Assembly (NCBI RefSeq): GCF_018446385.1
Contig: NC_055996.1
Location: forward strand, 17,595,317 to 17,659,316
Direction: 5' to 3'
Source of the DNA: Zingiber officinale
Lineage: Eukaryota; Streptophyta; Magnoliopsida; Zingiberales; Zingiberaceae
Length of the DNA: 64,000 bases
The number at the start of each line of letters is the position of its first letter. The first letter of the stretch is position 1. Below the pieces are notes generated by a model, which saw only the letters and a program-made list of their open reading frames with translations, was not told the origin of the DNA and did not search any database. Position numbers and translations under genes: made by a program. This document shows, in pieces, positions 5,461 through 59,033 of the stretch.

Positions 5461-5644
5461 ATCTAGACTTCCCACCAACTATAAGGTCTAATAGACCTAA
5501 TTAGATTTTAGCCTGATGTTAGGTCTTCCAGACTCATTAAGTCCTACAAACTAGGTAAAAAGATTAGATCACACAACACTTAACTTTAACCATTTGACAT
5601 CCATCAAAACATAAATTTGACCATTGATGACAATTGCACCAACA
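5461..5644 (-). repeat. truncated minus-strand LTR start inside the gypsy pol
   Basis: On the minus strand the segment begins at 5644 with TGTTGGTGCAATT, the usual start of the SIRE-like LTRs also seen at 17660, 20425 and 30790. It runs only 184 bp before being cut by the end of the A element at 5460. Directly to its right the gypsy RNase H frame is interrupted, so this LTR had inserted into the gypsy element before A arrived. Confidence 0.6.
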
Positions 5645-15080: not shown

Positions 15081-15353
15081 TCAGTTAAGGGCGGCGGTGA
15101 GGGACCTGAAGACGACCTCCTCGCAGGGGATGGTAAGCCCCCTCTCGTGGTCGAACCCGAACTCCTCCTCCGCCTGCCGAAGTAGGCTCTGGAACTTGGG
15201 GTGGGCGAGGTAGGCGATGGGAACCACGAAGCGGCTCCGGTTCTCGCCCACGTACACCGCGAAGTGCCCCCTCGGCACGTCCGCCGTCTCGCCCTGCTTC
15301 CGGCCCAGGCTCGAACACCGCTTCAGTATCTGCTTGATGGTTGGCTTCCCCAT
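15081..15353 (-). CDS. SAUR family small auxin-up RNA protein, copy 1
   Basis: An intact intron-less 90-residue protein, the normal SAUR size. The N-terminus [20 protein letters not shown] is basic. The SAUR core follows: [13 protein letters not shown] (about 26-38), RFVVPI (about 41-46), [19 protein letters not shown] (about 51-69) and GLTIPCEE (about 72-79). This is the SAUR50/SAUR16-like pattern. Known family: such SAURs inhibit PP2C.D phosphatases, keeping plasma-membrane proton pumps active and promoting cell expansion. The start is the ATG at 15353, since it gives the canonical length; longer upstream extensions have no homology. A TATA box lies 71-80 bp upstream. A second gene at 57999-58271 differs by three residues (T to A, A to S, E to Q). 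Confidence 0.95.
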
Positions 15354-15423
15354 GCTTAAATTTATCGAAGAAGAAAAAGAGGAGGAGGAGTGAAGCGTAT
15401 GCAGCAAAGGGAGCTCTCTGAGA

Positions 15424-15433
15424 GATATATAAG
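15424..15433 (-). promoter_or_regulatory. TATA box of SAUR copy 1
   Basis: On the minus strand CTTATATATC, about 75 bp before the ATG, followed by a CT-rich leader. It is conserved in the second SAUR copy at 58311-58320. Function is inferred from position. Confidence 0.6.
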
Positions 15434-16548
15434 CAGAGGGAGGAAGAAACAGAGCATGTGGAGGGTTGTGAGAAACCATGGAAGCGTGACGGGCCCAGTG
15501 AACATGCGGGCTGAAGGTTGGCTGCGGTTGTTGGCCCTTTGAAGGACAAAGCCTGGCCCTCCTCTCGCCATGATCTATCCGTAATGCATCCAGCTTGAAG
15601 TTGTGGGGAGCCACTGTTTTCTTGCAGTAAAGAAACAAGTATAAAATGTATCTAATTGACATTTTAATGAGCACTTTACTTTTTTGTTTGTTTGTTTAGT
15701 TGTTTCTGAAGCTGTTTTGTAGTTTGCTATTAATACAATGTTAATTGACTTCTGTGAACTAGACGTTTCATGCAAAAGCGGCACTTGCGTGGAACTCGGG
15801 CTAAGGCCATTCGTCCAGGTTAGCTTAAGTTGCGAGTTCCTTCCTAAATTTGGCTTTGCGGGATGACGCTCGGCCCCCCGGCCTACTGCTTGCTTGCTCG
15901 TCGAAAGAAGAGAGGCCCGGAAGCCTGGGAATTTGACAGGTAAGCACTTCTTGAGGATATGACAGAACAATCACTAATCAGTGTGTGAACATCTGAATAG
16001 CAGCAAAAGCAATCTAACGACGAATAATGGCAATCATAATTTTTATGCTGGCAATGAACTTCTGTTCATTTTTAGGATAAAATTGAAGCCGATTTTCAGG
16101 GGTTATTATAATGGGATAAAGGATTAATTTTTTAACAGGTACATATCTTTGAGGAAACAAAAATTCCTGTCACGGGACTATATGATAGCTATTTGACTAT
16201 ATGATTTAGTCAAATTAAAGAAACTTTTGTCATATGATCGTTAAAGGATGTTCAGAGAATCATCAAGATGATCCTGATCAAATTAAAGAAACTTTCAAGA
16301 TTTAGTTGAAAAGTAACCATTGACTTGTTTAATCCCTTTAGTCTTCAACAAGAAACTTGCAAGATGATTGTGTTGAAAAGTAACCATTGACTTGTTTAAT
16401 CCCTGATGGATGTACTTTGGCCAAAATTGAACAAGTTGGCAAGAAAATAAATGGCATGATATGAACTGATGAAGATAGCAATGCATGTGATCTTGACACT
16501 CTCTTTACACAGCTAATTCAGTGAAAGACTCAGAGAAGCAAAGCAGAG
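15434..16548. other. SAUR copy 1 upstream region
   Basis: Non-coding. The part to about 15970 matches the region upstream of SAUR copy 2 (58321-58850). Sequence around 15935-16100 also matches 59235-59400. From about 16251 it enters the direct repeat shared with 56291-56740. Within 16283-16409 a short tandem duplication repeats the AAAGTAACCATTGACTTG block. Confidence 0.6.
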
Positions 16549-16710
16549 TGTTGGAAATTGCTTTTCCGAATAAAGCGCGTTGTCAATCTCTATCGAAAGA
16601 GATAGCGAAGAATATGTATGGAGATATTTAAACCTAATCGGAATAGTTTTGTTTTGATATTAAAGTCTCTCTCGACTATGAAATGAGATTTTGAGATATT
16701 TTAAGGACTT
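16251..16710 (+). repeat. direct repeat X, left copy
   Basis: This segment is closely similar, in the same orientation, to 56291-56740. Shared blocks include TTCAGAGAATCATCAAG, the run through GGCAAGAAAATAAATGG, and TGTTGGAAATTGC at 16549 (56573 in the other copy). The copies flank the whole nested-transposon block. The similarity covers host sequence and the first 160 bp or so of the copia LTR, then stops. Confidence 0.8.
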
Positions 16711-16861
16711 CATATGAGACAATAATTTCTTTATTAGAGGATATTTTATTAGTTTATTTATTTATTTATTTATTAGTAGTTTAGGAGTTTTTCCTATTTT
16801 ACACTTATAATACTATTTATACTGCACACATCATTCATAAAGATTATATTATCAACTTTCA
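16549..16861 (+). repeat. probable 5' LTR of an Ale-type copia element
   Basis: It begins TGTTGGAAATTG and is followed at 16865-16876 by TGGTATTAGAGT, a primer-binding site with two changes from the methionine-tRNA complement TGGTATCAGAGC. A short LTR of about 310 bp fits Ale/Retrofit-type copia elements. The 3' edge is placed at the CA before the primer site and may be off by a few bases. Confidence 0.6.
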
Positions 16862-16950
16862 CCATGGTATTAGAGTGCTAAGCTTGACAATAATTAATTG
16901 TTCTTCTCTCCACAAACCCTAGCCACACGCCACCATAGCCGCCGCCCACA

Positions 16951-17659
16951 ATGGCCAGCGCTGCTGACAACACCTATTGGCCGCCTTCCACGAAAGCTCT
17001 TGATTTGTCTTCTAATCTTGTGGTTCTCAACGTCAATGATCAAGCACCGTTAAAACTCACCACTTCTAATTATTCGGCCTGACGCTTGCAATTCACGTCT
17101 CATCTATTCGGGTATGAATTACTAGGATTTGTTGATGGCTCACATCCCTAACCCTTGTACAGATAATGCCTACAAACGCCATGCTCCCTCAGGCGATCCT
17201 GATCATATTCTCTAGCTCTGCTAGGATCAACTTCTCCTCACTGTTATTATTGGATCAATGTCTCCTACACTTGTGTAGTTTATTTCTGCATGCACTTCAT
17301 CTAGAGATGTGTGGTAGATGCTGGAGAGAACCTATGCTGCTCTCTCACATGTTAGGATTATGAGCTATCATCAAAACCTTGTTAGCCCTTACCAAGATAA
17401 CAGATCTTTCATTGATTATATGGAAGATATCAAAAAAATATTGATGCTCTTGCGCTTATGAATATCAAAGTTGACTTTAATGAACTCTCTATTTGCATCC
17501 TGAATGGTTTTAGCCAAGACTATTGCAATATCTCACATGCTCTACACGTGCTTGATATCACTATTACCTTTGGCGAGCTCTTCGAGCATCTCCTTAGCTA
17601 TGAGTCCGGTTAAAAACCTTGACAACATCTTCATCTTCGACACCAGTGACTGCTCTTGT
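16951..17659 (+). pseudogene. Ty1/copia gag, decayed (Ale/Retrofit type)
   Basis: From ATG at 16951 the frame reads MASAADNTYWPPS and then, with interruptions, a segment like VVLNVNDQAPLKLTTSNY and a relic of the following W-R-L-QF block, typical of Ale-type copia Gag. An in-frame stop follows at about 17080 and further stops and shifts later. It is split by element E at 17660. The glycine-arginine-rich Gag tail (SNSRGGR) resumes at about 31930. Confidence 0.7.
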
Positions 17660-18740
17660 TGTTGGTGCAGGTTGCACTAACGGTCGAACTCAGGTTTTAA
17701 TGAATAATAAAGTAAGTTAAGTTAGGTTTGTTATGATCTAACGATATAACTAAGTGTGCAGGAGAAGTCTATATAGGTTGACGGGTTGACCAGATATCTG
17801 GCAAGAAATCCAACTAAGTCGACGGGTTGACCGGATAGCTAGTACGAAGTCCATATAGGTCGATAAGCTGACCGGATATCTAGCACGAAGTCTAGCTAGG
17901 TCAACGAGTCGACCGGATAGCTGGCACGAAGTCCAGATAGGTTGACAGGTTGACCGGATGTCTGTCAAAGCGGTAAGTTAAGGTAAGTCACTGGAGGGGA
18001 GTGACTTGGTGAGGACGCGTTCCTCGTTTGAGGGAACAGTAGGTGTCGATCCAACTTAGATCCATTTCAAAAATCTAAGTTGAGATCTTGACTAGATTCT
18101 GGTCTCGAGAAGAAGGAATCTAATTATTACTCTATTTTTATAATTGTGCTAACTTTTGGTTTGCAGGGTAGTATAATGTTTATTGCCTCTGACTAATCTT
18201 TTTCTTGCAGGAAAAAGTTTTGCTGGAAAAAGTGGTCCGAACGCCCAGAATGCAAAAGTCTATCTTGTCCTAAACGTGGAGCGCGCTGATTGGCTGAGTC
18301 GACGTCACAGTTCAGGTGTCCGGAAGGGATCCGAGCGCCCGGAGCTACTTATATAAGAAGCCTTCCGCTAGAGCATGAAACACAACTTTCTACCATGATT
18401 GCTCTATTGTGCACTACTCCAAAGATGCTCCTACGATGTTGCGAAGCACCTCCGACAACCTACGACTCAATTTTATTTTCCTTGTTGTCGGTAATTTAGT
18501 TTTATAGTTCTTGTACTAATCTTGTAACTCTTTTCACAAACTATTAGTGGATTGCCCAATGAAAGTACTCGACGAGTGCGAGCCTTGGAGTAGGAGTCGA
18601 CGAAGGCTCTGAACCAAGTATAAGCTTGGTGTGTTAGCATTGTTCTTGTTTTTCTGTTTCTGCTGCTTACTCGATTAAGTTTCAACGATCGCGATTCAAC
18701 CCCCCCCCCCCCCCCCCCTAGTGAACTCTACAATCCAATA
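17660..18740 (+). repeat. 5' LTR of element E
   Basis: Begins TGTTGGTGCAGGTTGCAC and ends TCCAATA, where the 3' LTR has TCCAACA. It carries about five imperfect 41-bp units at 17763-17965 containing GTCGACGGGTTGACCGG-like cores. A TATA box (TATATAAG) is at 18350-18357. A run of 19 C near 18700 replaces the eight-C run of the partner LTR. Confidence 0.85.
18350..18357 (+). promoter_or_regulatory. TATA box of element E 5' LTR
   Basis: TATATAAG, conserved in the 3' LTR at 31537-31544 and preceded in both by a GCGCCCGGAGC-type block. Likely start region of the element transcript. Confidence 0.6.
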
Positions 18741-18742
18741 AG

Positions 18743-18754
18743 TGGTATCAGAAC
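18743..18754 (+). other. primer-binding site of element E
   Basis: TGGTATCAGAAC, two bases after the LTR end, one base off the initiator methionine tRNA complement. Confidence 0.8.
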
Positions 18755-19077
18755 GGGTACCGCTCTGAATTGGTACAACCACCAATCAGGCAAAGGGGGT
18801 CTTTTTTAAAAGAAAAATTATATATCGTTTGTGATTAAAAATAATTCTTACGTCCTTCATTTTTTTCCTTTAATTTTTGTTTTAAAAGTTCACTACAATT
18901 TTTTCACCATTAGTTATAACTGACGAAATAACCCTTCTGGTAAAATTTGTCATAATATTTTTTTATTATTATTTTCAAAATTTTTGAAATACCTTCGATT
19001 CTTTATCTCCCACAGTACTTACCCCAAGAAAAAGTCTTGGAAATTGTTTCGTATCTATATTTTTTGCAAGTATATCA

Positions 19078-20310
19078 ATGTCTCATCAAGAAGGATGGAG
19101 CATCTGCGAACCGTCACCATATGAGATATACGAGAGATACAAATTCAATTTATGGAGGATGCAGATGGAAAGCTTCATCTTTATGAATGACTTTGATGGC
19201 GACATGGCACTGAAACGATCAACCCAGAACTTGGAAGCAAACCAGAAGGTAATAAATTTAATTTCAGATCTATTACTTAATTAAGTTACATGCACGATAG
19301 GAAAGGTTAAGGATACCCACGAGTTTTGGACCTGCCAGACCAAGCTTCACGAGGAACCGTTGGAGTTAGAGAATCAAGTCAAAATCAAATCCAAACTCGA
19401 GTCAGATCCAATGAAGAAGCCTACTGAATTAGGGGATGCGCTTAAGGGCAGTATAATTTACCAAAATACCCTTACCAGTAGTAGTTTAAATTATCTGCAT
19501 GATAATCTATATAATTATGAAATTATCCCTAGTATGCTTCATGACAATCTAGATTTTGATCAAATCAATCAAAATTTTGATCAAATTGACATCAACCGTG
19601 ACTTGGTCAAACAGAACATTGATCAAATCAATTCAGACACATTAATAAATTCAGAAAACTTAAAATTAAAGAAAATTTAGAAACAATTAATTTAAACATT
19701 AAAATAAATTTGAATTTAAAAAATAATGAAATAGATTTAGATAAAATCACTAAATATCTTAATAAATTATTTAATAATCTATACAATATCAATCTAGAAA
19801 ATTCTATCCAAAAACAAAATAATTTAATTAATAAAAAATTAAATTATAAAGATAGACTAATCTAATAAATTCAACTAATAATATAAACTTGAAAGATAAA
19901 GAAAATATAAGGATAAATTCAAACACTTTAATAAAATTAAAACCAAAGTTAACAAATTCAAAATTGAATAATAAAGATAACATCTTAAATAAACATAATC
20001 TAGAAAATTCAAAATCAACAATTAATACCAAGTTAAAAGATAAACAAATATAATTCAAACAATTCGAATTTAAAAACTAATAAAAACTTAAACACTAAAA
20101 ATAATCTTAACTTAATAAAATTAAGATTTAAAGAAAATTTAAATATTAAATACACTACTTTAAAGAAGGACACTTTGACCAATTTAATTCATTCAAAAAT
20201 TAAAAATTTAAATTTAAATTACAAATTAAATATTAAAATCTTAACTAAAATTAACCTTAATTATAAAAAAATATTAAAAGGAAAATCAATAATTCAGGGG
20301 AGGCTCCAAA
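19078..20310 (+). pseudogene. Gag-like stub with long Asn/Lys/Ile/Leu-rich tail, decayed
   Basis: The frame from 19078 reads SPYEIYERYKFNLWRMQMESFI, like the N-terminal Gag block of SIRE-type copia elements. A stop ends it at 19284. A second piece (19360-19680) reads KLHEEPLELENQVKIK and then repeats like FDQINQNFDQIDINRD. Beyond its stop the same kind of protein continues in a shifted frame to about 19864 (ENLETINLNIKINLN, then KITKYLNKLFNN), and similar Asn/Lys-rich stretches can be read with further shifts to about 20310. I see a decayed coding region with a low-complexity, possibly coiled-coil tail. Its function is unknown. Confidence 0.55.
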
Positions 20311-20419
20311 TTAATTGACACCTCCAAAATAATAGATTACTCGATTGGGTAATTAGGACTAGTTTAAATAGGGACAACGGTTTAACTTGACAAACAGTAC
20401 TGGTGAAGTTTTGGATGAT

Positions 20420-20424
20420 AATAG
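20420..20424. repeat. target-site duplication of G (left)
   Basis: AATAG, identical to 27025-27029. Confidence 0.93.
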
Positions 20425-22120
20425 TGTTGGTGCAACCTTAGGTCAAGGTTGACCTGGTTGACCAGACTCGAGTTGACTTGACTCGAGTTGTGTTTTGATG
20501 TTTGACGAGTTATGTTTGACAATGTTTGACGTGAACAGAAAAGTTGTATCTTGATGATTGACAAGGATACAAGCTTGGGAGATTGTGGGTGCAACCCGTG
20601 GTCAAGGTTGACCTGGTTGACCCGAGGTGAGTTGACCAGACATCTGGTGAAAAGTCCAAGCAGGGAGCTTGGAACGGGAAAAGTCCAAGTATGGAGACTT
20701 GGCATGGAGAAGTCCAAGTATGAGAACTTGGCAAGTGGAAGTCGGAGAGGGCTCGGTAGCTTGTTCTCCGGACTAGGTCAGAGAGGGCTCGGTAGCTCGT
20801 TCTCTGGACCGGATGTGGAAAGTCCTGGTGAGTGAAGCCAGGCAGACGGATAAGTCCTGGTGAGTGAAGCTAGGTGAAAGTCCTGGTGAGTGAAGCCAGG
20901 CAGTGGGAAAGTCCTGGTGAGATCCTGGTGAGTGAAGCCAGGTGAAAACCCTAGTGAGTGAAGCTAGGTGAAAGTCCTGGTGAGTGAAGCCGGGCAAGGG
21001 AAAATCCAAATGGATCAAGGGTGATCGGACATCTGGTGTTGAGAATGTCAAGTAGGTCAAGGGAGTGACCGGATACTTGGCACGAAGAGAAAAGTCCAAG
21101 TGGGTCAAAGGGATTGACCGGACACTTGGTGGGGAGTCTTAGCAGGTCAAGGGAGTGACCGAATGCTAAGCATGATGTATCAACAGGTCAAGGTTGACCT
21201 GATGTTGGTGTGGGAGACTTGGGACTTGGTATTGGGAAAAACCAAGCTCTAGATCGATCTGGGGACCGATCCAGTGATACGGCTGATCGGTCTGGTGACC
21301 GATCAGTAACCAAACAGAATGGTTCTGTGGATTATCTGATCGGTCTGAAGACCGATCAGGAAGCAAATAGAAGAGAAGAAGGAGAAAGGCTGATCGGTCC
21401 AGGGACCGATCAGACTCCTCCTGGACCGATCAGGACATAGCTTGATCGGTCCAGGCTTAGCCTGATCGGTCCCCAAGACCGATCATGGACAGTGTGGACC
21501 GATCAGGTTGGAGCCTGATCGGTCCAGGACTAGCCGTTGTGAGTGACAACGGCTAGATCTCGGTCTTCTGTGTCTTCTTCTTCCTTCACAGGTTTGCAGG
21601 TTCAGCTATATAAAGAGTCGAGCGACTCTACAAGTTCTTCTTCTTGCCTCTGCAAGTTCTTCCAGGTTCCTTCTAAGAGCTTTGCTGAGCTCGTACTTCT
21701 TGAAGCTTCGCGTGAGCTTCCCTGCTGCTGGCATCCGTGAAGCTGCTGCTTCATCAACGGATCTCCAGACGAGAAGGCAAGCTTGTTTGTTTTACATTCA
21801 TATTGTCTTGTGCTTCTTTGTATTTTGTGTACTTCTATCTTGCTGTTGCAAGAGTTATTGTGGCGAGGTTTCTCCACCCAGAAGGAGTTCATATTAGCCG
21901 ATTTTCCAGGGTTTCATCCACCGACGGATTGATAGGCTTCGTCCACCTTACGGACACGCCGAGGAGTAGGAGTATCATCTCCGAACCTCGTTACATCGTC
22001 GAGTTCGAGTTTGAGGTTTGATCTTTCCTTTTTGCGCTAACCTAATTCGTAGAAAGAAACGTGAAATTGGGGTCGGCTATTCACACCCCCCTCTCTAGCC
22101 GCGTCCATCGATCCTAACAA
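20425..22120 (+). repeat. 5' LTR of element G (1696 bp)
   Basis: It has three sequence zones. First come GTCAAGGTTGACC-type dyads (20440-20660). Next is a tandem array of AAGTCCTGGTGAGTGAAGCC-type units (about 20819-21000). Then comes an array of TGATCGGTC/GACCGATCA half-sites (about 21246-21530). A TATA box (TATATAAAG) follows at 21607-21615, so the half-site array sits in U3 just ahead of the promoter. Confidence 0.92.
21246..21530. repeat. GATCGGTC/GACCGATC hairpin array in the G 5' LTR
   Basis: A series of short inverted half-sites spaced by a few bases. One, at about 21391-21412, reads TGATCGGTCC, AG, GGACCGATCA: a perfect 10-bp stem with a two-base loop. The partner LTR has the same motif array at about 26140-26410 but a different arrangement. 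Confidence 0.85.
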
Positions 22121-22122
22121 GT

Positions 22123-22134
22123 GGTATCAGAGCA
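22123..22134 (+). other. primer-binding site of element G
   Basis: TGGTATCAGAGC, two bases after the 5' LTR end; complement of the 3' end of initiator methionine tRNA, the usual plant copia primer. Confidence 0.9.
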
Positions 22135-22181
22135 AGGTTGCTCTTCGTCGGATTAACACCCAAGGGAGCACAAGCTAGAGA

Positions 22182-23606
22182 ATGGATCAACTTGGAGGAG
22201 ACGTCACGATTCCACCCTTCTACGATCGCGACGACTTCGCGTTTTGGAAGGTAAGAATGAAGTACTTTCTTATGACTAACTTAGTTAATTGGAATTGTGT
22301 ACAAGTAGGTTTTGTTCCTCCAAGGGATGAAGAAGGAGAAATTCTTGAAAAGAAGAGGTGGACGAAGGAACAAATCCACCAATCCGTAATCAACGACGAG
22401 GTAATGAAAATTTTTGAATTCTCATTACCTAACGATATCTTGTGTAAGATAGGTGGTTACAACAATGCCAAGGAATTGTGGAACAACTTGGCCAAGTTCC
22501 ATGAGGGAAGCTCCAATTCAAGTCATGAAGAGGAGTCAAGTGAGTCAAGTAGCTCACTTCATGGAGGTAAGGAATTAGAAGTTGAGGGCTACTCAACATC
22601 TAAGGAAGAGGAGGAGGAGAGTTCTTCTTCAAGATTGGAGCAAGAAGAAGAAGCCTCTACTTCCGGAAGGGATGAAGAAGAAAGCATACAACCATCCTCA
22701 ACCCTAGGTAATTCAAGCAATTTACTTTCAAGTAAATTACATATAATGTGCTTTGAGTGTAGGAAATTTGGGCATTACAAGAGTAAATGTCCAAGGAGGA
22801 TTAGGAAGACTCCACCGGCGCCAAAGGTCAAGAAAGTCGAAGTCCCGATACGCAAGGGTAAGGAGCATGTGGTGTGCTTCCAATGCAAGCGAAGGGGACA
22901 CTATAGGAGCCAATGTCCGAGGGGGAGGCAATCTCACAAGGACAAGAGACCGAGCACGTCTATAGGGGGAGCTAAGGCAAACCCTAAGGTAATCTTTAAG
23001 GCACACTCTTGCAATTCTAGTAGGATGCATGCTAGTAGCCTTATTGCTATTGTCAATAATAATAAGCATGATAACTATAGTAATCGATACACGTGCTTAG
23101 GTGCCAAACATGTTAGTCTAGATAAGGACAATACTAGAAAAACCAACCCTAGAATTAACTCATCTAAGGTTAAGGAAAACCTAGGTAGAAATCCCAAAAC
23201 ACCTAGACATATGTCTAGGAATACCTCAAAGATAAATGACAAATTAAAACTTGAGGTATTAGAAAAGGAAAATCAAGTCTTGAGGTCAAGACTTGACAAT
23301 TTAGAAAAGGCCCTTAAGAATTTAGAGAAGTTAACTCAAGGGCCTAAGGGTCAAAAATCAAAGCTCACTTATCATAATGTTCCATTCGATTATGGAACAA
23401 GACCTAGGGCTAGAAAGACCATCACCAAGGTCACAAGGGGAGTCACCCCTAGAGTTGATCTTGATGAGTCCCAAATGACCAAGGCTTTAAAGCCTAGGAG
23501 GGTCATTAGGAGGGTTGCTAGGGAAGTCATCCCTAGTGAATATTTAGTGAACCCAATGAGCTCAAATAGGTATTGGGTTCCTAGGAGCGTGATTCCATCA
23601 CGCTAG
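22182..23606 (+). CDS. Gag polyprotein of element G, intact, no pol fused
   Basis: 474 residues, first ATG after the primer site. The N-terminal capsid-like part starts with PPFYDRDDFAFWKVRMKYFL and includes AKELWNNLAKFHEGSS, as in SIRE-type Gag. A Glu/Ser-rich acidic stretch follows (about 108-170). Two CCHC zinc knuckles lie at about 189-202 (CFECRKFGHYKSKC) and 227-240 (CFQCKRRGHYRSQC). A predicted coiled coil is at about 352-386 (LEVLEKENQVLRSRLDNLEK). The C-terminus has a repeated basic module with V-x-P (VTRGVTPRVDL, VAREVIPSEYL) and ends WVPRSVIPSR. It packages retrotransposon RNA. It stops where SIRE-type elements normally continue toward protease; enzymes must come from another element. 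Confidence 0.93.
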   Translation: MDQLGGDVTIPPFYDRDDFAFWKVRMKYFLMTNLVNWNCVQVGFVPPRDEEGEILEKKRWTKEQIHQSVINDEVMKIFEFSLPNDILCKIGGYNNAKELWNNLAKFHEGSSNSSHEEESSESSSSLHGGKELEVEGYSTSKEEEEESSSSRLEQEEEASTSGRDEEESIQPSSTLGNSSNLLSSKLHIMCFECRKFGHYKSKCPRRIRKTPPAPKVKKVEVPIRKGKEHVVCFQCKRRGHYRSQCPRGRQSHKDKRPSTSIGGAKANPKVIFKAHSCNSSRMHASSLIAIVNNNKHDNYSNRYTCLGAKHVSLDKDNTRKTNPRINSSKVKENLGRNPKTPRHMSRNTSKINDKLKLEVLEKENQVLRSRLDNLEKALKNLEKLTQGPKGQKSKLTYHNVPFDYGTRPRARKTITKVTRGVTPRVDLDESQMTKALKPRRVIRRVAREVIPSEYLVNPMSSNRYWVPRSVIPSR

Positions 23607-25313
23607 ATGGTTTAGGGTGGGCCAACCTTACTTGAATAGGTAGTTAACCTAATCATGGCAAAAGGTGGCACTTTAGGAATTTTCAAGGTGTAATCAAGCC
23701 TTGAAAATGAAATGAAAAGTTATTCCTAAGGTGATTAGGATGTGCCAATCATATTTGAGGAGTTGTCTAGTGTCAATCTAATTGACACATAGTGATCTAA
23801 AAATCTTTGGTATAAGATGCTAGGTCTATTACACTTAGGAATATAGAACCTATGGCAAAATGATCAAAACTATCAAAAATGGCAATTAAGGCTAGAATTA
23901 GGTATCTTCTATACCCTTACATGTCATTTTCCATATATTGTTTGTCATATGCCATGTCATGACATCATATTTAATTTATTATCATTTGAAATGTCATGAT
24001 AATGCTTATGTTAGTTAAATGTCATGCTCTATTTAAGTTTCATACTTTATGCCATGACATCATGACATTGGCACATGTTTTTACTTATGATATCATTATA
24101 TGCCATGTCATCATCTTTTGCATTTATAATCAATTAATTTGATTTAAGGACAAAAACACAATTTGATATGGAGATCAAATTGTTGTTTAGAAAATGCATG
24201 AGAACTTAGCCTAAGATGACCTAAACTCATATCTCACATCAAAATTGACTTGGATGTGTTTGATACACCTTAGATGTGTGTGAGATATTAGGATCATGAG
24301 TTAGGATCAAGGTGCATAGTTCTTATACCTAGATGAGCCTAATTCGAAATTGAGGATCATAGGGAAAGCTTGTGTACAAGTCATGTACATTTAGTCCTAA
24401 GATTGTGGTCCTAAATTAAATGGTTTAAAATCATTTCAAAATTGATTTGAAAAACCTTGATGAAGCTTTTCTAGTGATAACATTCATCATTGAGCAAGTT
24501 GATACAAAGTTCTTGAAACTTTGAGCTATTTCAAAACTTTTCGAACTTTGTATCAAGATTTGAAAATGGAAGTTATTTTCATAGAAAACTATTTTTTCTT
24601 GATAGTATATGTTATGAGGAATGTATCCTCAAAGTTTTACAATTTTTGGAATTTTCTGGAATTTTCTAGGAGTTTCTGAATTTCGGGAGGAAAATCAGAA
24701 ATTCTGATATCAGTTTTGTGGACCGATCAGAGAGGATTCTGATCGGTCCAGGAGGTATCGGTCCAAGTCTGTGTGGCTCGGTCACTGGACCGATCCAGAG
24801 GGAGCCTGATCGGTCTGGTGACCGATCAGGGCGTGCCAAATTGCTGAAATTCGACTGGTTGTCTGAAATTTCAGCTCGGGAGTTGGTATTTTGAAGGTTT
24901 GAAACTCTCCAAGACATTGTTGGTGCAATGGTCAAGGGGGAGTTGACCTTTAGGGGGAATTTTACCTATTAGTCAAGGGGAGTTGACTTTTAGGGGGAGT
25001 TTTTACTCCTAAAGACTTGAGTGATATGGGATTTTCACTAAGTTAATTGTTGGACCTTAGTATCAAGGGGGAAATTAAGAGTTTCAATGAAAGGTATGAG
25101 ACTTTCATTAGGAAGAAACTCTTGACCTTGATTCACTCTTTTTGATGTGTGTCAAAAAGGGGGAGAATGTCTCATTGGAGTTTGAGGAGAATGGAGAATG
25201 TCTAGAGAATGTTCAGGGAAGAACATTGGAAAACCTAAGTTAGGTTATCGGGTTAACCTAACTTGATTATGGGTTTGATTATGGATTTTGTCAAACATCA
25301 AAAAGGGGGAGAT
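23607..25313 (+). other. non-coding 3' internal region of G
   Basis: 1.7 kb without credible frames. Contains CATGTCAT/ATGACATG-rich text (23920-24120), a second, smaller array of GACCGATC/GATCGGTC half-sites at about 24719-24835, then several AAGGGGGA tracts (24935-25075) and the true polypurine tract at about 25300-25312. The array motif equals the one in the LTR. Confidence 0.75.
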
Positions 25314-27024
25314 TGTTGGTGCAACCTTAGGTCAAGGTTGACCTGGTTGACCAGACTCGAGTTGACTTGACTCGAGTTGTGTTTTGATGTTTGACAAGTT
25401 ATGTTTGACAATGTTTGACGTGAACAGAAAAGTTGTATCTTGATGATTGACAAGGATACAAGCTTGGGAGATTGTGGGTGCAATCCATGGCCAAGGTTGA
25501 CCTGGTTGACCCGAGGTGAGTTGACCAGACATCTGGTGAAAAGTCCAAGGAGGGAGCTTGGCACGGGAAAAGTCCATGTATGGAGACTTGGCACGGAGAA
25601 GTCCAAGTATGGGAACTTGGCAAGTGGAAGTCGGAGAGGACTCGGTAGCTCGTTCTCCGGACTAGGTCAGAGAGGGCTCGGTAGCTCGTTCTCTAGACCG
25701 GATGTGGAAAGTCCTGGTGAGTGAAGCCAGGCAGACGGATAAGTCCTGGTGAGTGAAGCCAAGCAGTGGGAAAGTCCTGGTGAGTGAAGCCAGGAAGTGG
25801 GAAAGTCCTGGTGAGTGAAGCCAGGCAGTTGTGAAAGTCCTGGTGAGTGAAGCCAGGTGAAAATCCTAGTGAGTGAAGCTAGGTGAAAGTCCTGGTGAGT
25901 GAAGCCAGGCAAGGGAAAATCCAGATGGATCAAGGGTGATCGGACATCTGGTGTTGAGAAGGTCAAGTAGGTCAAGAGAGTGACCGGATACTTGGCACGA
26001 AGAGAAAAGCCCAAGTGGGTCAAAGGGATTGACCGGACACTTGGTGGGGAGTCTTAGCAGGTCAAGGGAGTGACCGAATGCTAAGCATGATGTACCAACA
26101 GGTCAAGGTTGACCGGATGTTGGTTTGGGAAAAACCAAGCTCTGGACCGATCCGGGACCGATCCAGTGATACACTGGGTATCTGGATCGGTCTGGTGACC
26201 GATAAGTAACCAAACAGTAGGTTACTGAGTGTTATCTGATCGGTCTGAAGACCGATCAGGAAACAACGATCAGAAGGCAAGAAGTTCGGGAGAAAGGCAT
26301 GCTGATCGGTCCCTGGACCGATCGGAAGCCCTGATTGGTCCCCAGGACCGGTCAGAGGAAGCTCTGATCGGTCCCCAAGACCGATCGTGGTCTTGCTGGA
26401 CCGATCAGGAGATGTTCTGGTCTTCTCTTCTTCGCAGGTATAAAAGAGGGCTGAGGGCTTCTACAGTGCTTCTTCACCGAAGCTTCTGCTTCTTCTTGCT
26501 TCTGCAAGTGCTGTGCTAGAGCTCTGTTTCTTGCCTCTGCAAGTTCTTCCAGGTTCCTTCTAAGAGCTTTGCTGAGCTCGTACTTCTTGAAGCTTCGCGT
26601 GAGCTTCCCTGCTGCTGGCATCCGTGAAGCTGCTGCTTCATCAACGGATCTCCAGACGAGAAGGCAAGCTTGTTTGTTTTACATTCATATTGTCTTGTGC
26701 TTCTTTGTATTTTGTGTACTTCTATCTTGCTGTTGCAAGAGTTATTGTGGCGAGGTTTCTCCACCCAGAAGGAGTTCATATTAGCCGGTTTTCCGGGGTT
26801 TCATCCACCGACGGATTGATAGGCTTCGTCCACCTTACGGACACGCCGAGGAGTAGGAGTATCATCTCCGAACCTCGTTACATCGCTGCGTCTAAGGTTT
26901 GATCTTCTCGTTCTCGTTTCTATTATTTTATTTCCGCTGCGCTAACCTAATTCGTAGGAAGAAACGTGAAATTGGGGTCGGCTATTCACACCCCCCTCTC
27001 TAGCCGCGTCCATCGATCCTAACA
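25314..27024 (+). repeat. 3' LTR of element G (1711 bp)
   Basis: Same ends as the 5' LTR. TATA box TATAAAAG at 26439-26446. The AAGTCCTGGTGAGTGAAGCC array (25709-25910) has a different number and order of units, and the half-site array differs in the middle, so the two LTRs have diverged mainly in array regions. Confidence 0.92.
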
Positions 27025-27029
27025 AATAG
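27025..27029. repeat. target-site duplication of G (right)
   Basis: AATAG, identical to 20420-20424. Confidence 0.93.
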
Positions 27030-30000
27030 GTTAGGGAAGCTCTGTCTATGCATATTTAGGAAGATATGGCTTCGACCTGCTACATTTGGCTTAGTGGAAT
27101 TAACTGAAGCTACCCCTTATGAATCCTAATTAGTTAGACCAAGGTTTTGTACTAAGTTCAGTGGATGAGACCATTTGGAAAACCTCGAAGGCATGGTTAC
27201 TCTAATGATGTTCAGGTGACTCACCATAGCCCAGAAGTTTATGCAAAGAATGTATGTTTGTTGAGCCCAAATATAAATCTGAATCTAACACAAAGTTCAA
27301 CCAAACCCTAAAATTGAACCGAACTCATCTCACAAAATTAAAAGATTACTTGATTGAAAACATAGATCATGTGAGATAACTAAGAACTTAAAACTAAAAC
27401 TAAATTAAATTAAAATAAAAATAAAATAAAATTTAAATTAAATTAAAACTAAATAAAAATTAAAACTAAATTAAAATTAAATTAAATTAAACTAAATTAA
27501 AATTAAATTTAATTAAAAATAAATAGAGATTAAATTAAATTAAATTAAAAACAAATTAAATTAAATTATAATTAAAAATAAATTAAAATTATATTAAATT
27601 AAATTAAAACTAAAATAAATTAAATTAAATAAAAATTAAATTAAATTAAATTAAAACTAAATTAAATTAAATTAAAATAAAATATAAAAAAATAAAATAA
27701 AATGAAATAAATTAAATTAAAAATGAATTAAGATTAAATTAAATTAAAATTAAAGAAAAATTAAATTAAAATTAACTTAACTAGAAATTAACTTAAAAAT
27801 TCAACTTAAATTAAATTAACCTAAATTAACTTGAAATTTAACTTAAATTAAATTCAATTTAAAGTTAAAATTAAAATTAAAATTAATCTTCAAATTAATA
27901 AAAATTAAACTTAAACTTAAAATTTAAAAAATTAAAATTTAACTTAAACTTAAAATTGCACTCAAACTTAAAATTAAAATTAAATATTAAACTTAAACTT
28001 GAAATTAAAATTAAACTTAAACTTAAAAATTAAAATTAAACTTAAACTTAAAAAATTAAAATTAAACTTAAACTTAAACGTAAAAAATTAATAAAAATTA
28101 AAATTAAAATTAAACTTAAACTTAAAAAATTGATAAAAATTAAAATTAAACTTAAACTTAAAAAATTAATAAAAATTAAAATTAAACTTTAAATTAAATT
28201 ATACTCTAACTTAAATTAAAACTTATACATAAACATAAAATAAATTTAAAACTTTAAATTAAATTAAAACATAGATTAAATTAAACTTTAACTTAAATTA
28301 AAAATTAAACTTAAATTAAAATTAAAAATTAAACTTTAACTTAAATTAAAACTTAAACTTAGATTAAAATTAAAAATTAAACTTTATCTTAAATTAAAAC
28401 TGAAACTTAAATTAAACTTAAGATTAAATTAAATCTGTAACTCAAATTTGATACCCTAACTACTTAACCTAATCATTTTTTTTAATAAAATTATCACCCA
28501 GTCAAATTAAACTCTAAAATCATAATTGAATTAAACATATGATAATTAACATAAAACATATTTTAGGTTTTTTTAAAAAAATCCTTTTAAAGATCCTTTT
28601 AAAATTCTTTTAAAAGCTTTTAAAAATTATATAAAAAACATTTTAAAACTATTTTAAAAATTATTTTTAAAATTATTTTAAAAACTATTTAAAAAATTAT
28701 TATAAAAATTATTTTAAAAAATTTAAAAATTATTTTTAAAACATTAAAAATCATTTTAAAAATTATTTTAAAATTCTTTTAAAATTTTAAAAATCATTTT
28801 AAAAACTTTAAAAATAATTTTAAAAATTGTTTTAAAAACATTAAAAATAATTTTAAAAATTATTTTAAAAACTTTTAATATCATTTTAAAATTTATTTTA
28901 AAAACTTTAAAATTAATTTTTTAAATTCTTTTAAAAATTATTTTAAAAACTTTTAAAATCATTTTAAAAATTCTTTTAAAAACTTTAAAAATCATTTTGA
29001 AAATTAAAAACTTTAAAAATTCCTTTATTTTTTTTAAAAAAATTATTTTTAAAAAAACTTTAAAAATTATTTTAAAAAACTTTATAGATCATTTTAAAAA
29101 TTCTTTTAAAATTTCCTTTAAAAAAAACTTTAAAAACAGTTTAAAACTTAGACACTTAACTTAAAACTTAAATCCTAATTAATAAACAATCAATTCAATC
29201 AAAATTCAATTAACCTAAACTTTAAATTTAATTAATAAATAATAATTAAGTAAACTTAGTTATTTAGCATAACCTTATTTAAGAACTTTGTTGACTTGAT
29301 CATTATCTTAATTTAACCTAATTAAAATATTAACTCTAAGTTATTTTTAAATCAGACTTGCCTATTCATTAAAACGTTAATCCAAATTTAAACTTTACTT
29401 TAATTAAATCATAATTTATCTCATTTAAAGATTACCTTAAAATTGAACATTAACTTTACTTAACTTTATTTAATAATTTTAAAAAAATTAACTCTGAATT
29501 AATACTAACTTAGTTAATCTAAGTTAAATCTAATAAAAAAGGATGATGTAAATGTAAAATTAAATTATAACTAAGACTTTTATTAAATCAATTAACTCAA
29601 TCAATTAATATGAAATTTAAGTTGTTTTAATCAAATAAGTATTAAATTGAGTTAGTAACAAATCATTACATTTAACTTGAAACTTAAATGAATAATTATA
29701 ATAAGTATGTAGAAATACTTATGGAAATAGTATACTAAATATGAGTGTTACTGACCTCAATTCCCTTAAAACACTTAGGTAGACAAATGTACTAAGGCCT
29801 TGAAATTGAACATACCCAAACTCTAGTACAAATTAAGGGGAAGTGTTAAGTTAAGGAGGAGTATTGAGTACAGGGGGAGGATTAATAACTTAAAAATTAT
29901 TTTGAAAATTGTTTCATTTTTTTAACTACTAGCATTTTCAAAACTGTAAAGTTTGTAAACACTTCAACTTTATCACACTTATACAAATTTCAAAAGTGTT

Positions 30001-30789
30001 TTAAAAAGATAACTTTTAAAAATCAATTTGGCAACTATTTAAGTTTTGAAATATTGCTTTAAAAGATATTTTTGAAAACAGCTTGGCACAATTTTCAAAA
30101 AGTTTAAAAATCTTACTTTAGTTTTATCATTTTATTCATCCCTTATATCTTTTTCAAAAATTCCATTTCTTGAAAAAGGTTTTCAAATTTTTTTCCCAGC
30201 TATTTTTCAAAATATTTTTTTTTTAAAATAATTTTGAACTCTCTAACCGTAAAGTTATTTTTACAAAAACTTTTCTTTTGGAAACCTTATGAAAAATTAA
30301 TAGATTTTGAAAACAATTTCAAATTTTCTAATCTTTAAAGTTATTTTTGCAAAGTTTAGAAGTATCAAATTTTTGTATCTTTTGGAAATCTTATTTTTTG
30401 AAAACTTAGTAGATTTTTAAAATAATTTCAAAATCACCTTATTTTTGGGAATCCTGACATAAAGTTTTTGCTCTTGAAAATCACTTTATAAGATGTCTTT
30501 AAAGATTTTCTTAAAGTTAATTAACTTATTTTCTAAGTTAATTCCCCAAGTAATCCTGAAAATTTTTCTATTGTCAAATATTTTTGGTTACTTTACATAG
30601 CAAATTTTTCCCTGAATTGTCTATTTCAATTTTTTGATGAATGTCAAAGGGGAAGGGTTAAGTGGATTAAGTTAGCAAAATACCAAAGCATAACATTAAA
30701 ACAAGACTAACTTAAAAACCATATCATTTTTTCATATTATTTTTTTTTAAACTTAACTCAGGTTGTCATTGCATCTAAAAGGGGGAGAT
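27030..30789 (+). other. AT-rich interior of element E after the G insertion
   Basis: 27030-27300 is ordinary sequence continuing E. About 27380-28440 is nearly pure A/T with repeats of AAATTAAATTAAAACT type, the top strand rich in A and poor in G. About 28560-29130 is built of AAAATTATTTTAAAAACTTT-type units. 29150-30780 is less extreme, ending in the polypurine tract AAAAGGGGGAGAT. No coding gene is visible. Confidence 0.75.
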
Positions 30790-31916
30790 TGTTGGTGTAG
30801 ATTGCACTAACGGTCAAACTCAGGTTTTGATGAATGACAAAGTAAGTTAAGCTAGGTTTGTTATGATCTAACGATGTAACTAAGTGTGTAGGAGAAGTCC
30901 AGATAGGTCGACGGGTTGACCGGATATCTGGCAAGAAATCTAGCAAGGTTGACGAGCTGACCGGATAGCTGATATGAAGTCCAGATAGGTCGACGGGCAG
31001 ACCGGATATTTGACAAGAAGTCCAGCTAGGTCAACGGGCCGACCAGATAGCTAGCACGAAGTCCAGACAGGCCGACGGGCTGACCGAATGTTTGACAAAG
31101 TGGTAAGTTAAGGTAAGTCACTGGAGGGGAGTGACTTGGTGAGGACATGTTCCCTGTTTGAGGGAACAGTAGGCGTTGATCTAACTTAGATCCATTTCGA
31201 AAATATAAGTTGAGATATTGACTAGATTCTGGTCTCGAGGTGACAGAATCTAATTACTATTCTATTTTTATAATTGTGCTAACTTTTGTTATGCAGAGTA
31301 GTATAATGTTTATTGCCCCGGACTAATCTCTTTCTTGCAGGAAAAAACTTTGCTGGAAAAAGTTGTCCGAGCGCCCTGAAGGGATCTGGGCACCCGGAGT
31401 TGGCCCGGGGGCCCGGAACTAGTCCAGGCACCCGGAATGTAAAAGTTCATCTCATCGTAAACGTGGAGTGCACTGATTGGCTGGGCCGACGTTACAGTCC
31501 AGGCGCCCAGAAGGGATCTGGGCGCTCGGAGCTACCTATATAAGAAGCTTTTGCCAGAGCATGAAACACAACTTTCTACCATGATTGCTCTATAGCACAC
31601 TGCTCCAAAGATGCTTTTGTGACACTGCAAAGCACCTTCGACAACCTGCGACTCAGTTTTAATTTCTTTGTTATAAGTAATTTAGTTTTATTGTTCTTGT
31701 ACTAATCTTGTAACTCTTTTCATGAACTATTAGTGGATTTCCCAACGAAAGCACTCGACGAGTGCGGGTCTTGGAGTAGGAGTCGATAAAGGCTCCGAAC
31801 CAAGTAAAAAGTTGGTGTGTTAGCATTGTTCTTATTTTTTTGTTTCCGCTGCTTACTCGATTAAGTTTCAATGATCGCTATTCACCCCCCCCTCTAGCAA
31901 ACTTTACTATCCAACA
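30790..31916 (+). repeat. 3' LTR of element E (1127 bp)
   Basis: Begins TGTTGGTGTAGATTGCAC and ends TCCAACA. Contains the 41-bp array at 30893-31095 and a TATA box at 31537-31544. It differs from the 5' LTR by many substitutions and small indels, so E is older than its nested element G. Confidence 0.85.
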
Positions 31917-32014
31917 CTTGGAATTCATGTACATGGTATTCAAATTCTCGTGGTGGTCGCTAGTAGACTTCTAATTCAAATTTGCATAGCTACGAGCATG
32001 GTAGATTCCAGCGA
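31917..32014 (+). pseudogene. copia gag tail fragment
   Basis: Reads YSNSRGGR then a stop, the glycine-arginine-rich Gag tail expected after the piece that ends at 17659. It is interrupted at 32015 by an inverted D-family LTR. Confidence 0.5.
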
Positions 32015-33250
32015 TGTCACGCCCCGAGAGTAAGGTTGCCCGACTAAAATCGGACATCACCTCTCCTGTAGTAGTGACAATGAAACTAGTATACATTATC
32101 CAAGGCTACTCACAAGCCAACAACAACCCACACAGCTAGATATAAAACACAACCATGCAGTTATATACACAACCCACACCGCTGGAACAAAAAAAATATA
32201 ACCACATAGTTGTATAGTAAGAAGCCCACATGATTGGAGCAAAAAGGCAGTGAAAGACATAAGAAAAATATAAAAATAATACAACTAACTGCGAGTCGAC
32301 CCAACTTGACATAACAAGTTCATAACCGAAATAAAGGACACCACAAGTCTGAAAAACCATACAGAAGGTACATAATACAAATACAAGTACAAAATCAATA
32401 ATGCGAGTAGAAGCAATAACGATAGAAGTCGCTCGATGTGACATGGGACTAGCGGACAATATCTCCAGGCAACTCTATAAATCCTTTACCTACTACCTAG
32501 CGAAATAAACCAGTTTACGGGGTGATGAATACTAAAACTCAATGGGTAATAGACAGATAGTACATGAACATAATATATATCACCAGAGATTCAAAGGTAT
32601 ACAGTCTCATAAGAAAAATAGCAGAATCTACAGTGATATCATAGTAAATGTCCATACTTGAAACCATATCCTAGGCTAGTAACAGTAGATCAGGGATAGT
32701 GAGGATCTGCAATAGTACTGCTCATACTACAAGGGTATCATGTGAGGTATACTACCAATGAGTAAGTCAGTGTCTAAGCACATGCAACAGGTATATAACT
32801 CAATATAAGTAAGCATATCACATGGATATAGCAAGAGAACTGTATAAGTAAACAAACAGCAACATAAGAAAGTATAATAATAACAGCGTATGTACGGATG
32901 ATCACTCCCGCACACCTCTCTGCACCATGACCTCTGTATAGTCGAGAGGCCGGGTCAGTGATATATTGCACACCACTCCAGCTACCACTACTCTTAAGTG
33001 GCCGAAGGGACAGTTATATAGTAGCTAACTAGCTACGTCTGTGACGGGGTCCCTGCTGCCCGTAACTCTAGCTATCACTACCCCTGAGTGAGCGAGTGAG
33101 GGCAAGAAAGGACAAGTGACATCTGCTCTAGCTACCACTACCCATGAGTGGCTGAGCGTACGACCCTAGCCAATGACCCTCTCAATCACAAGGGAGACAT
33201 GGTCGCCAGCATGCATGCAATGACATGATGCATAAAATGCAACAGTCATC
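32015..33250 (-). repeat. truncated D-family LTR, copy D3
   Basis: On the minus strand it ends GGGGCGTGACA at 32015 and is homologous to the 3' parts of D1 and D2, including the CCACTC...GAGTGG-type blocks (about 32980-33160). It is cut at 33250 inside the block GATGACTGTTGCAT by the end of element H. The rest of this LTR is not in the window. Confidence 0.82.
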
Positions 33251-48745: not shown

Positions 48746-50489
48746 TTATGGGGTAGAGAAAATACTCCTAGGAACCCAAAACCTATTGGTGCTCCTTGGA
48801 TGCTCTAGGTATTCATTAGGGATAACTTCCCTAGATACCTTCCTAGTGAGCTTGTTAGGCTTCTTAGAAGCCTTGGTCACTTTCTCTAGGTCAAGTCTAG
48901 GGATAGCTTCCCTTGTGATATTCTTGGTGACTTTCTTAGACTTCTTAGAAATCTTAGTCACATTTGTTGTTGCAAAGATACTCCTAGGGATAACTTCCCT
49001 TGTATCCTTGACTTGACTCCTAGACCTAGGATTGGTTCCATAGCTATATGGAACCCTATGGTAAGTAGTTACATCCTTCTTAGCTTTAGGTTTGTATCAC
49101 AAACCTCTATGATCATTTGATGGCTTTTGTGTTCCTAGCCCTAGGTGGTGCCCATTTTGGTCCTTAAGAAAATCTTTGATTATCTTTAAGGTCTTTTCCA
49201 TATTATCAAGTCTTGACTTCAAGACTTGATTTTCCATCATTAAATCCTTAGTTTTGAAATTTTCTTTAAATCCTTGAGTATTTCTATTTTTGGGCGTGTA
49301 TCTACTATCCTTAGTATTCTTGCCCAAATTTATATCTACCTTCCTAACCCTAGGTGTGGTAGTTTTGGCATGAAGAGCCATATGATTTTCATTAATCCTA
49401 TCATGCCTTCTATTTGCATGATAAATAGCATTAAAATGATTAAAATTTGAATTATCATGATTTTTATCATGAGTCAAAGGAATAGGTTCAATAAATAATG
49501 CCTTGGGTTTTACCTTAGAAGCTCCCCTTTGACTAGTGCTTCCTCCCTTGACTTTGACCGATTTCTTCCCCTTAGGGCATTGGCTCCGGTAATGTCCCTT
49601 TTGATTACACAAGAAGCACACTATGTGCTCCTTGCTCTTCTTTGTTATGGGGTGGTCTCCTTGAGCTTCTCCTTACCCTTTGGTGTCATTTGGCCCTTTT
49701 TCTTGACCAATTTAGGGCACTTACTCTTGTAGTGCCCATGTTCCCTACACTCAAAATATATAATATGATTTTTATTTTTAATTGAACTAATTATACCTTC
49801 ACATGCAAGGATGACACCCGATCCTTCATTTGATGTCTCTTGATTTTGGAGGTTTTATCATCATCTTCTTCTTCACTTGACCCGGAGGTAGAAGCCTCTT
49901 CTTGCTCCGGTGTTAGTGAATGACGCTCCCCCTCAATCCTAGAGGTGGAGGTCTCTTCATCTTCATCTTCTTGTCCATTGAACAAAGAGTATGCTCCCTC
50001 TTTGCCCTTTTCATTGTGCCTCGTTGAAGATGAAGCTTCTTGGACCTCTTCTTCGAAAGTTGAGCATCTCTCAACTTTGGAGTCCTCTTCCTCTTGGTCT
50101 TGATCCAATGAGTCATCCTCTTTGGATTCTTCTTGATTTGATATAGTGGAAGGGACCTCATGAATCTTTGTCAATTTGCTCCAAAGCTCCTTAACATCCT
50201 TGTATTCTTCAATTTGCTTCAAGATGTTGCTAGGCAATAAATTGACCAATAACTTGGTCACTTTATCATTGGCTTCACATCTTTGGATTTTCTCTTGGCT
50301 CCACTTGCTCCTCTTGAGAATTTTTCCCTTTGAATTTGTTGGAGCTTCAAAGCCTTTCATGAGAGCAAACCATTGCTCTATCTCCACCATTAAGAAATTT
50401 TCGATCCTTGATTTCCAAAGATTGAAGCTTGTTGAAGTGAATGGTGGAGGCATCCTCGTATCATATCCAAGTCCATCTTGGAATTTCAT
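48746..50489 (-). pseudogene. Gag of element F, broken
   Basis: Start MKFQDGLGYDTRMPPPFTST, with FNLWKSRIENFLMVEIEQWF as in SIRE-type Gag. An acidic Glu/Ser-rich stretch (about 50161-49850) follows, then a first CCHC knuckle in shifted frame (CREHGHYKSKC, about 49740) and a second at about 49620 (CFLCNQKGHYRSQC). A coiled-coil segment (MENQVLKSRLDNMEKTLK) comes next, then three basic VIP modules (TREVIPRSIF, TREAIPRLDL, SREVIPNEYL), ending WVPRSIFSTP. The open parts are 50489-49791, 49621-49097 and 48961-48746. Frameshifts and a stop separate them. The layout equals that of the intact Gag at 22182-23606. Confidence 0.85.
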
Positions 50490-50598: not shown

Positions 50599-50610
50599 GC
50601 TCTGATACCA
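50599..50610 (-). other. primer-binding site of element F
   Basis: TGGTATCAGAGC on the minus strand, two bases from the LTR end at 50613. Confidence 0.88.
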
Positions 50611-57998: not shown

Positions 57999-58271
57999 TC
58001 AGTTGAGGGCGGCGGTGAGGGACCTGAAGACGACCTCCTCGCAGGGGATGGTAAGCCCCCTCTGGTGGTCGAACCCGAACTCCTCCTCCGCCTGCCGAAG
58101 TAGGCTCTGGAACTTGGGGTGGGCGAGGTAGGAGATGGGGACCACGAAGCGGCTCCGGTTCTCGCCCACGTACACCGCGAAGTGCCCCCTCGGCACGTCC
58201 GCCGCCTCGCCCTGCTTCCGACCCAGGCTCGAACACCGCTTCAGTATCTGCTTGATGGTGGGCTTCCCCAT
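57999..58271 (-). CDS. SAUR family small auxin-up RNA protein, copy 2
   Basis: Intact 90-residue SAUR with the same layout as the gene at 15081-15353, differing at three positions (EAADV for ETADV, ISYL for IAYL, DHQRG for DHERG). Core blocks [38 protein letters not shown] and GLTIPCEE are unchanged, so both proteins look functional. The start is ATG 58271. The leader is shorter by a 35-bp deletion, so the TATA box is only about 40-50 bp from the ATG. Known family role: PP2C.D inhibition and cell expansion. High identity in coding and flanking DNA indicates a tandem duplication. Confidence 0.95.
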
Positions 58272-58310
58272 GCTTAAATTTATGCAGCAAAGGAAGCTCT
58301 CTGCATTAGA

Positions 58311-58320
58311 GATATATAAA
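58311..58320 (-). promoter_or_regulatory. TATA box of SAUR copy 2
   Basis: TTTATATATC on the minus strand, equivalent to 15424-15433. The leader between this box and the ATG lacks the CT-rich 35 bp found in copy 1. Confidence 0.6.
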
Positions 58321-59033
58321 CAGAGGGAGGAAGAAACAGGGCATGTGGGGGGTTTCGAGAAGCCATGGAAGCGTGACGGGCCCAGTGAACATGTGGGCTG
58401 AAGATTGGCTGCCACTGTAGGCTTTTTGAAGGGCAAAGCCTGGCCCTCCTCTCGCCATGATCTTTCCGTAATGCATCCAGCTTGAGGTTGTGTGGAGCCA
58501 CTTTTTCCTTGCAGTAAGTAAAGAAACAAGTATAAAATGTATCTAATCGACATTTTAATGAGCACTTTACTTTGTTTGTTTGTTTGTTTCTGAAGCTGTT
58601 TTGTAGTTTGCTATTAATACAATGTTAATTGACTTCTGTGAACTAGGCGCTTTCATGCAAAAAAACGACACTTGCGTGGAACTCGGGCTAAGGTCATTCC
58701 TCCAAGTTAGCATACATTGCGAGTTCCTTCCTTAATTAGGCTCTGCAGGATGATGCTCGGCGCCCCATCCCACTGCTTGCTTGCTTGCTGGTCGAAAGAA
58801 GAGGAATTTGACAGGTAAGCACTTCTTGAGGATGACAGAACAATCACCGATGAGTGTGAAAATGGAAGCCTTTTTCTACGGGTGTGACAAATTTAATTTA
58901 TTACAATAGGAAGAAATTGAAGCCTCAAAATCTTATGTGCCATACATGTGCTCATACATTGTAAGCTTAAGCATATGCAAAATCATATTAAATTACTTGT
59001 CTTTTATTTTATTTTTGTGTGTTATTCTTACCG

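Follow-up and report, generated by a model that had tools for sequence, protein, structure and literature searches.

How can a retrotransposon that encodes a Gag protein and no pol enzymes persist in a plant genome? The question is raised by a 64,000-nt stretch of ginger (Zingiber officinale) DNA (C11:17595317-17659316, here the window), in which positions 20425..27024 hold an element named G. It is 6600 bp long and has two long terminal repeats (LTRs), both starting with TGTTGG and ending with CTAACA, a perfect 5-bp target-site duplication (TSD), a primer-binding site (PBS), a polypurine tract (PPT) and an open gag frame; this structure, with a 474-residue Gag, two CCHC knuckles and no pol, had been proposed in a preliminary description of the sequence and was confirmed with exact coordinates (Table 1). 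Regarding pol, tblastn with sirevirus protease, integrase and reverse transcriptase (RT) frames found none in the interior of G at E values up to 0.1, and in that run the queries did recover the element they came from and further Copia pols. The Copia pol of the window itself gave weak matches only; with the low-complexity filter off, the best of them (E 0.007) fell in the acidic stretch of Gag. Judged from sequence, it is fairly probable that G belongs to a TR-GAG family within the genus Sirevirus (Ty1/copia) of LTR retrotransposons and, taken jointly, that it depends on the helper mechanism proposed below.

As for the Gag, which had been described as intact, its frame is indeed open, but by its predicted domains the protein is not a full Gag: the C-terminal part of the capsid is missing. 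A predicted capsid N-terminal domain is followed by an acidic linker, then by the two CCHC knuckles and finally by a long helix, likewise predicted. Residues 5-128 match the Gag of a pol-bearing element, called a sirevirus by its PPT junction, at 33.6% (E 1.3e-21); Pfam (E up to 1) recognized the knuckles and, weakly, DUF4219 (E 0.02), with no match to Retrotran_gag_2. AlphaFold2 modelled the complete Gag poorly (pLDDT 41.1), with confidence only for helix 347-385, and a sequence search of solved structures gave 7 matches, mostly zinc-knuckle proteins, with a best E of 0.043.

The TR-GAG identity requires two LTRs with TSD, PBS and PPT, Gag only (or Gag plus protease; PMC6022998) between them, and a multi-copy family with a common gag-only structure; G displays the first two, and the third was sought in the genome assembly (3,090,333,446 bases, 211 contigs). 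The LTR query gave 8146 first-look candidates, 40 of which were scored, and 11 LTR neighbourhoods were fetched. Complete elements were present in seven of these, and all seven had the order LTR-Gag-linker-LTR, a similar size and no pol inside. In the other four, the Gag at C10 is interrupted by a pol-bearing sirevirus, the copies at C4:53608000 and C8 are truncated, and C5 holds an LTR only. Copia pols with 29-37% identity to the sirevirus pol lie close to both truncated copies: the one at C8 is upstream of the LTR, and the one at C4, 3.8 kb past the break point in the linker, most likely belongs to another element. Among the scored LTR matches, six pairs are 5.0-5.5 kb apart and one 8.9 kb; the latter delimits a gag-only copy whose 3' LTR contains another element, and pol was not matched there. 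The Gag query was scored for the best 90 of 134,440 first-look candidates, thus a sample of the best matches; each G-type Gag among them is about 1.41-1.48 kb long, which leaves no space for the missing capsid domain, and 50 of the 90, G included, are stop-free. All six Gag flanks fetched enter the linker, which L034 covers for just 45 bp, and none of the six has a pol match. Because the gag-only structure is common to the seven complete relatives, G is not a lone deletion derivative; the TR-GAG assignment of the preliminary description is borne out, and the finding that would have undone it, pol in most copies with these LTRs, did not emerge in the sample fetched. In addition, five G-type Gags lie within 41 kb at C9:35849366-35890021, two neighbouring pairs being 5.4-5.5 kb apart, as if the elements stood in tandem with shared LTRs.

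The open Gag had been taken to suggest selection, and at the family level this is supported by two measures. The ratio of non-synonymous to synonymous change (dN/dS) was obtained by Nei-Gojobori counts on 14 Gag copies (91 pairs), of which L032-L037, chosen among the best protein matches, are biased towards intact frames; the frameshifted copy C4c, whose length is not a multiple of three, and the partial Gags of C10 and C8 were left out of this and of the stop test. The median was 0.365 (range 0.23-0.90) and the pooled value 0.36, with a codon bootstrap of 0.29-0.45 that ignores shared ancestry. By region, dN/dS was 0.24 for the N-domain, 0.51 for the acidic linker, 0.26 for the knuckles, 0.42 for residues 251-350, 0.24 for the coil, and 0.62 for the C-tail, where synonymous change is very low. 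Among the LTR-sampled copies, 8 have a frame-preserving length; together they contain 4 stops against a neutral expectation of 22.9, and none of 2000 simulated runs gave 4 or fewer; the star tree rooted at G and the exclusion of one frameshifted copy both favour such a deficit. Gag has been kept by purifying selection.

Regarding its affiliation, G ends in the terminal PPT octamer AGGGGGAG followed by AT and TG, and carries several such octamers less than 0.5 kb from the 3' LTR (24935, 24992, 25158, 25304), with two more inside gag (22920, 22964). Its LTRs contain the palindromic CGG-CCG motif, of which only the core was counted (GATCGGTC and GACCGATC occur 6 and 7 times in the 5' LTR, 4 and 6 times in the 3' LTR), and its Gag is homologous to that of the pol-bearing sirevirus. 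The portions consulted of the genus description (Bousios et al. 2010, PMC2829016) list the same junction, a number of PPT octamers close to the 3' LTR, CGG/CCG palindromic LTR boxes, and a Gag with a knuckle and a downstream coiled coil; G differs from the genus in having no pol, a reduced capsid and two knuckles.

RT priming and integrase act at the PPT, the PBS and the LTR ends. A search for an autonomous partner with the same LTR ends and primer site had been suggested, and the pol-bearing sirevirus answers to it in part: its letters agree with those of G where the terminal PPT meets the LTR and where the LTR end meets the PBS, while blastn found no further similarity between the two 5' LTRs. 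Its Gag is different, with a full capsid, and as a query it scored 119 places counting its own, each of them 97-100% identical, so that pol enzymes were probably available recently. Since sirevirus junctions are conserved genus-wide, according to the sections consulted of PMC2829016, they identify the helper of G as a type and not as a proven individual. One copy of the pol-bearing sirevirus (L013, about 4938-6355) shows open frames downstream of RT and ahead of the 3' LTR, an env-like position.

On these grounds, pol-bearing sireviruses with matching PBS, PPT and attachment ends would supply the enzymes for reverse transcription of the RNA of G and for its integration; the half-capsid Gag of G probably binds its own RNA via the knuckles and probably enters the particles of the partner via contacts of the capsid N-domain, which would package the RNA of the element. 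We infer this trans-mobilisation, with Gag participating, because of the matching ends, the probably available enzymes and the reported transposition of a TR-GAG element in Arabidopsis. With a layout common to the related copies read and a Gag preserved by selection, G looks like a parasite of complete elements, not a recent wreck.

Table 1. Features of element G and of other gag-only elements in the window.
Feature	Position	Strand	Remarks
TSD AATAG, left	20420..20424	.	
5' LTR of G, 1695 bp	20425..22119	+	U3 subtype of most fetched copies
U3 block specific to subtype, 5' LTR of G	21230..21640	+	TATA-like motif at 21607
PBS of G, TGGTATCAGAGC	22122..22133	+	
gag open reading frame (ORF) of G	22182..23606	+	474 aa plus stop
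Capsid N-terminal domain of Gag, predicted	22182..22511	+	aa 1-110; five helices, dN/dS 0.24
Acidic Ser/Glu linker of Gag	22512..22730	+	aa 111-183; expected place of capsid C-terminal domain
CCHC knuckle 1 of Gag	22749..22790	+	aa 190-203
CCHC knuckle 2 of Gag	22875..22916	+	aa 232-245
Long helix of Gag, predicted	23220..23336	+	aa 347-385; probable coiled coil
3' part of gag, candidate cis-acting RNA	23262..23603	+	raised third-position conservation and hairpins
Non-coding linker of G, rich in hairpins, without pol	23607..25303	+	AGGGGGAG octamers at 24935, 24992, 25158
Terminal PPT octamer AGGGGGAG plus AT, G	25304..25313	+	
3' LTR of G, 1711 bp	25314..27024	+	other U3 subtype; block 26130-26530, TATA-like motif 26439
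TSD AATAG, right	27025..27029	.	
Element H, older, host of the G insertion	17659..31892	+	no pol match
Family B Gag, broken frames	48749..50489	-	PBS at 50599-50610

TR-GAG elements are usually read as copies that have lost pol, and a clean loss had also been suggested for G; for G this is not supported, as a second family has the same reduced Gag and no compact Gag with pol was seen in the sample of copies. This family B, also represented in the window, has a Gag 33-38% identical to that of G, and 150 places were scored with its N-terminal part. Both long stretches fetched (L029, L030) contain an open 602-aa Gag, with dN/dS of 0.36 between them, followed by a linker with PPT octamers, and neither has a pol match. 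Nor was pol matched in six short stretches 3' of family B Gags, four of which continue into the B linker; L044 holds the Gag end only, and L045 gave no match. On weaker evidence, two further elements may belong here. Element H, with LTRs 86-88% alike (about 17659-18707 and 30789-31892), a decayed gag with an N-domain (about 19060-19680) and a PPT-LTR junction at 30780, would be a third, decayed gag-only sirevirus; its right half contains a degenerate tandem array (27326-28280). The element inside the G-type 3' LTR at C4 (L038, about 3660-7300) is short, an estimated 3.6 kb, and looks like a fourth; it comprises a Gag N-domain, a PBS, a PPT junction and repetitive sequence that resembles coding sequence. 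As for an empty site of G, a homologous stretch on C12 (97% over 16600-17650; 94% over 19000-19869) was rejected: its likeness to H stops at window position 19863, which is 561 bp short of G, and neither G nor an empty site is present in the 3.5 kb read there. Querying with a second flank (32000-33000) found repeats only, the best at 87%.

Recent mobility, also suggested for G, is not readable from its LTRs, which are of two subtypes. Three blocks of 293-300 bp are 97-98% alike, but the two differ strongly around columns 800-1300 and 1600-1700 of their alignment, and the U3 block of the 3' LTR aligns with the 5' LTR at only 77.6%. The 5' block is the subtype of most copies read, and the 3' block is best matched at other loci (96% at C22, 91% at C16); each of these core-promoter blocks is present in other genomic LTRs. 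With the TSD intact, such a chimeric pair agrees with plus-strand transfer from one cDNA to a different one within the same particle, or with gene conversion at a later time. The age computed for G (1.56 My) was rejected for the same reason; LTR dating places the seven other complete copies at 0.47-1.04 million years (My) at a rate of 1.3e-8.

The two gag-only families are also rich in perfect hairpins (stem of 7 or more, counted against shuffled sequence). In G there are 7 in gag (0.7 in shuffles), 13 in the linker (1.2) and 11 in the 5' LTR (0.7); in family B (L029 and L030), 7 and 9 in gag (1.2 and 0.8) and 24 and 18 in the linkers (1.7). The density in these parts is 3.9-10.3 per kb, against 0.5-2.0 in six other stretches of the window, three of which have a mild excess (5 vs 1.4, 5 vs 1.8, 6 vs 2.1). 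The pol-bearing sirevirus has 1 in gag and pol (about 3.1 in shuffles) and 6 in its env/linker part (1.4), and element H has 2 vs 0.8 and 8 vs 3.6. The palindromic sirevirus box accounts for part of the excess in LTR and linker. Three gag hairpins occupy matching places in G and L030, with weaker support from L029. Compensatory changes are suggestive only: 48 double changes keep pairing and 30 do not, while 497 single changes break a pair. Third-position identity in gag codons 361-474 is 47/58 between G and L030, against 69/136 elsewhere (p 6e-5), and 42/60 against 77/138 with L029 (p 0.08); in hairpin stems it is 19/22 against 97/172 (p 0.01) and 17/22 against 102/176 (p 0.11), respectively. 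A role of the hairpin RNA in the gag-only families may be considered a lead.

These observations allow a wider, tentative proposal, possible but well short of likely: G may belong to an old gag-only sirevirus lineage living on a half-capsid Gag, with the N-domain and the RNA-binding part kept and the C-domain dropped, whose hairpin-filled RNA would be compacted for, or selected into, the particles of a partner, in families with less than 40% Gag identity. Among the alternatives, the one that survives best, although unlikely, is that the half-capsid protein is kept because it poisons the particles of complete elements as a dominant negative. The strong constraint on the N-domain agrees with this, and there are analogues in p22, which acts against Ty1, and in RTL8, which resembles a capsid N-domain, joins PEG10 particles and reduces their abundance, according to the portions consulted of PMC11684626; on the other hand, the knuckles, needless for a pure poison, are under similar constraint, and pol-bearing sireviruses with 97-100% identical Gags are abundant in the same genome. 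Slightly less probable is that G is left over from a lineage that still had pol in the recent past; the compact Gag would then come from complete elements that are scarce or extinct today, and so would the selection signal. Only a sample of copies was read, which leaves room for such elements, yet pol is absent from every copy read, and the Gag of the only pol-bearing sirevirus found is of another kind, with a full capsid. Finally, that the copies are passive deletion derivatives carried by cis signals alone, with Gag as a passenger, is improbable given the dN/dS of 0.36, the stop deficit and the open Gags of family B, even if ends and PBS may suffice for trans-mobilisation and a non-autonomous element without an intact ORF moved in Arabidopsis ddm1 (PMC8704663, parts consulted).

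A small, possibly SAUR-like ORF outside these elements is duplicated at 15081-15674 and 57999-58565, about 43 kb apart, with blocks matching at 86-99% around it.

The comparison with known systems relies on the portions consulted of the papers cited. Like G, TR-GAG elements have two LTRs, a single Gag ORF, no pol and a presumed mobilisation in trans (PMC6022998, PMC8704663, PMC9784723, PMC11728184); G departs from them in a Gag without the capsid C-terminal part and with two knuckles. The one that transposed in Arabidopsis has a 562-aa Gag, "full-length" according to its authors, and resembles one complete element, unlike G (PMC8704663). In the literature, judged from titles and parts of texts and with the founding TR-GAG description outside it, no gag-only sirevirus with a reduced capsid was found. 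The short Gag isoforms of sunflower share with G a shortened Gag with an RNA-binding knuckle, but they are a splicing product without the capsid domain, whereas G stands for a family in the genome whose Gag retains the capsid N-domain (PMC7730604). If such families lost part of the capsid and still keep Gag under selection, a fragment of Gag can be enough, and which part a non-autonomous element needs for its helper, capsid contacts, RNA binding or both, would become testable. RTL8 and PEG10 offer the same coexistence of an N-domain-only Gag relative with a full-capsid Gag (PMC11684626), RTL8 being a mammalian gene without zinc finger and G a mobile element with two knuckles; by this parallel, a Gag reduced to the capsid N-domain may be a recurrent solution.
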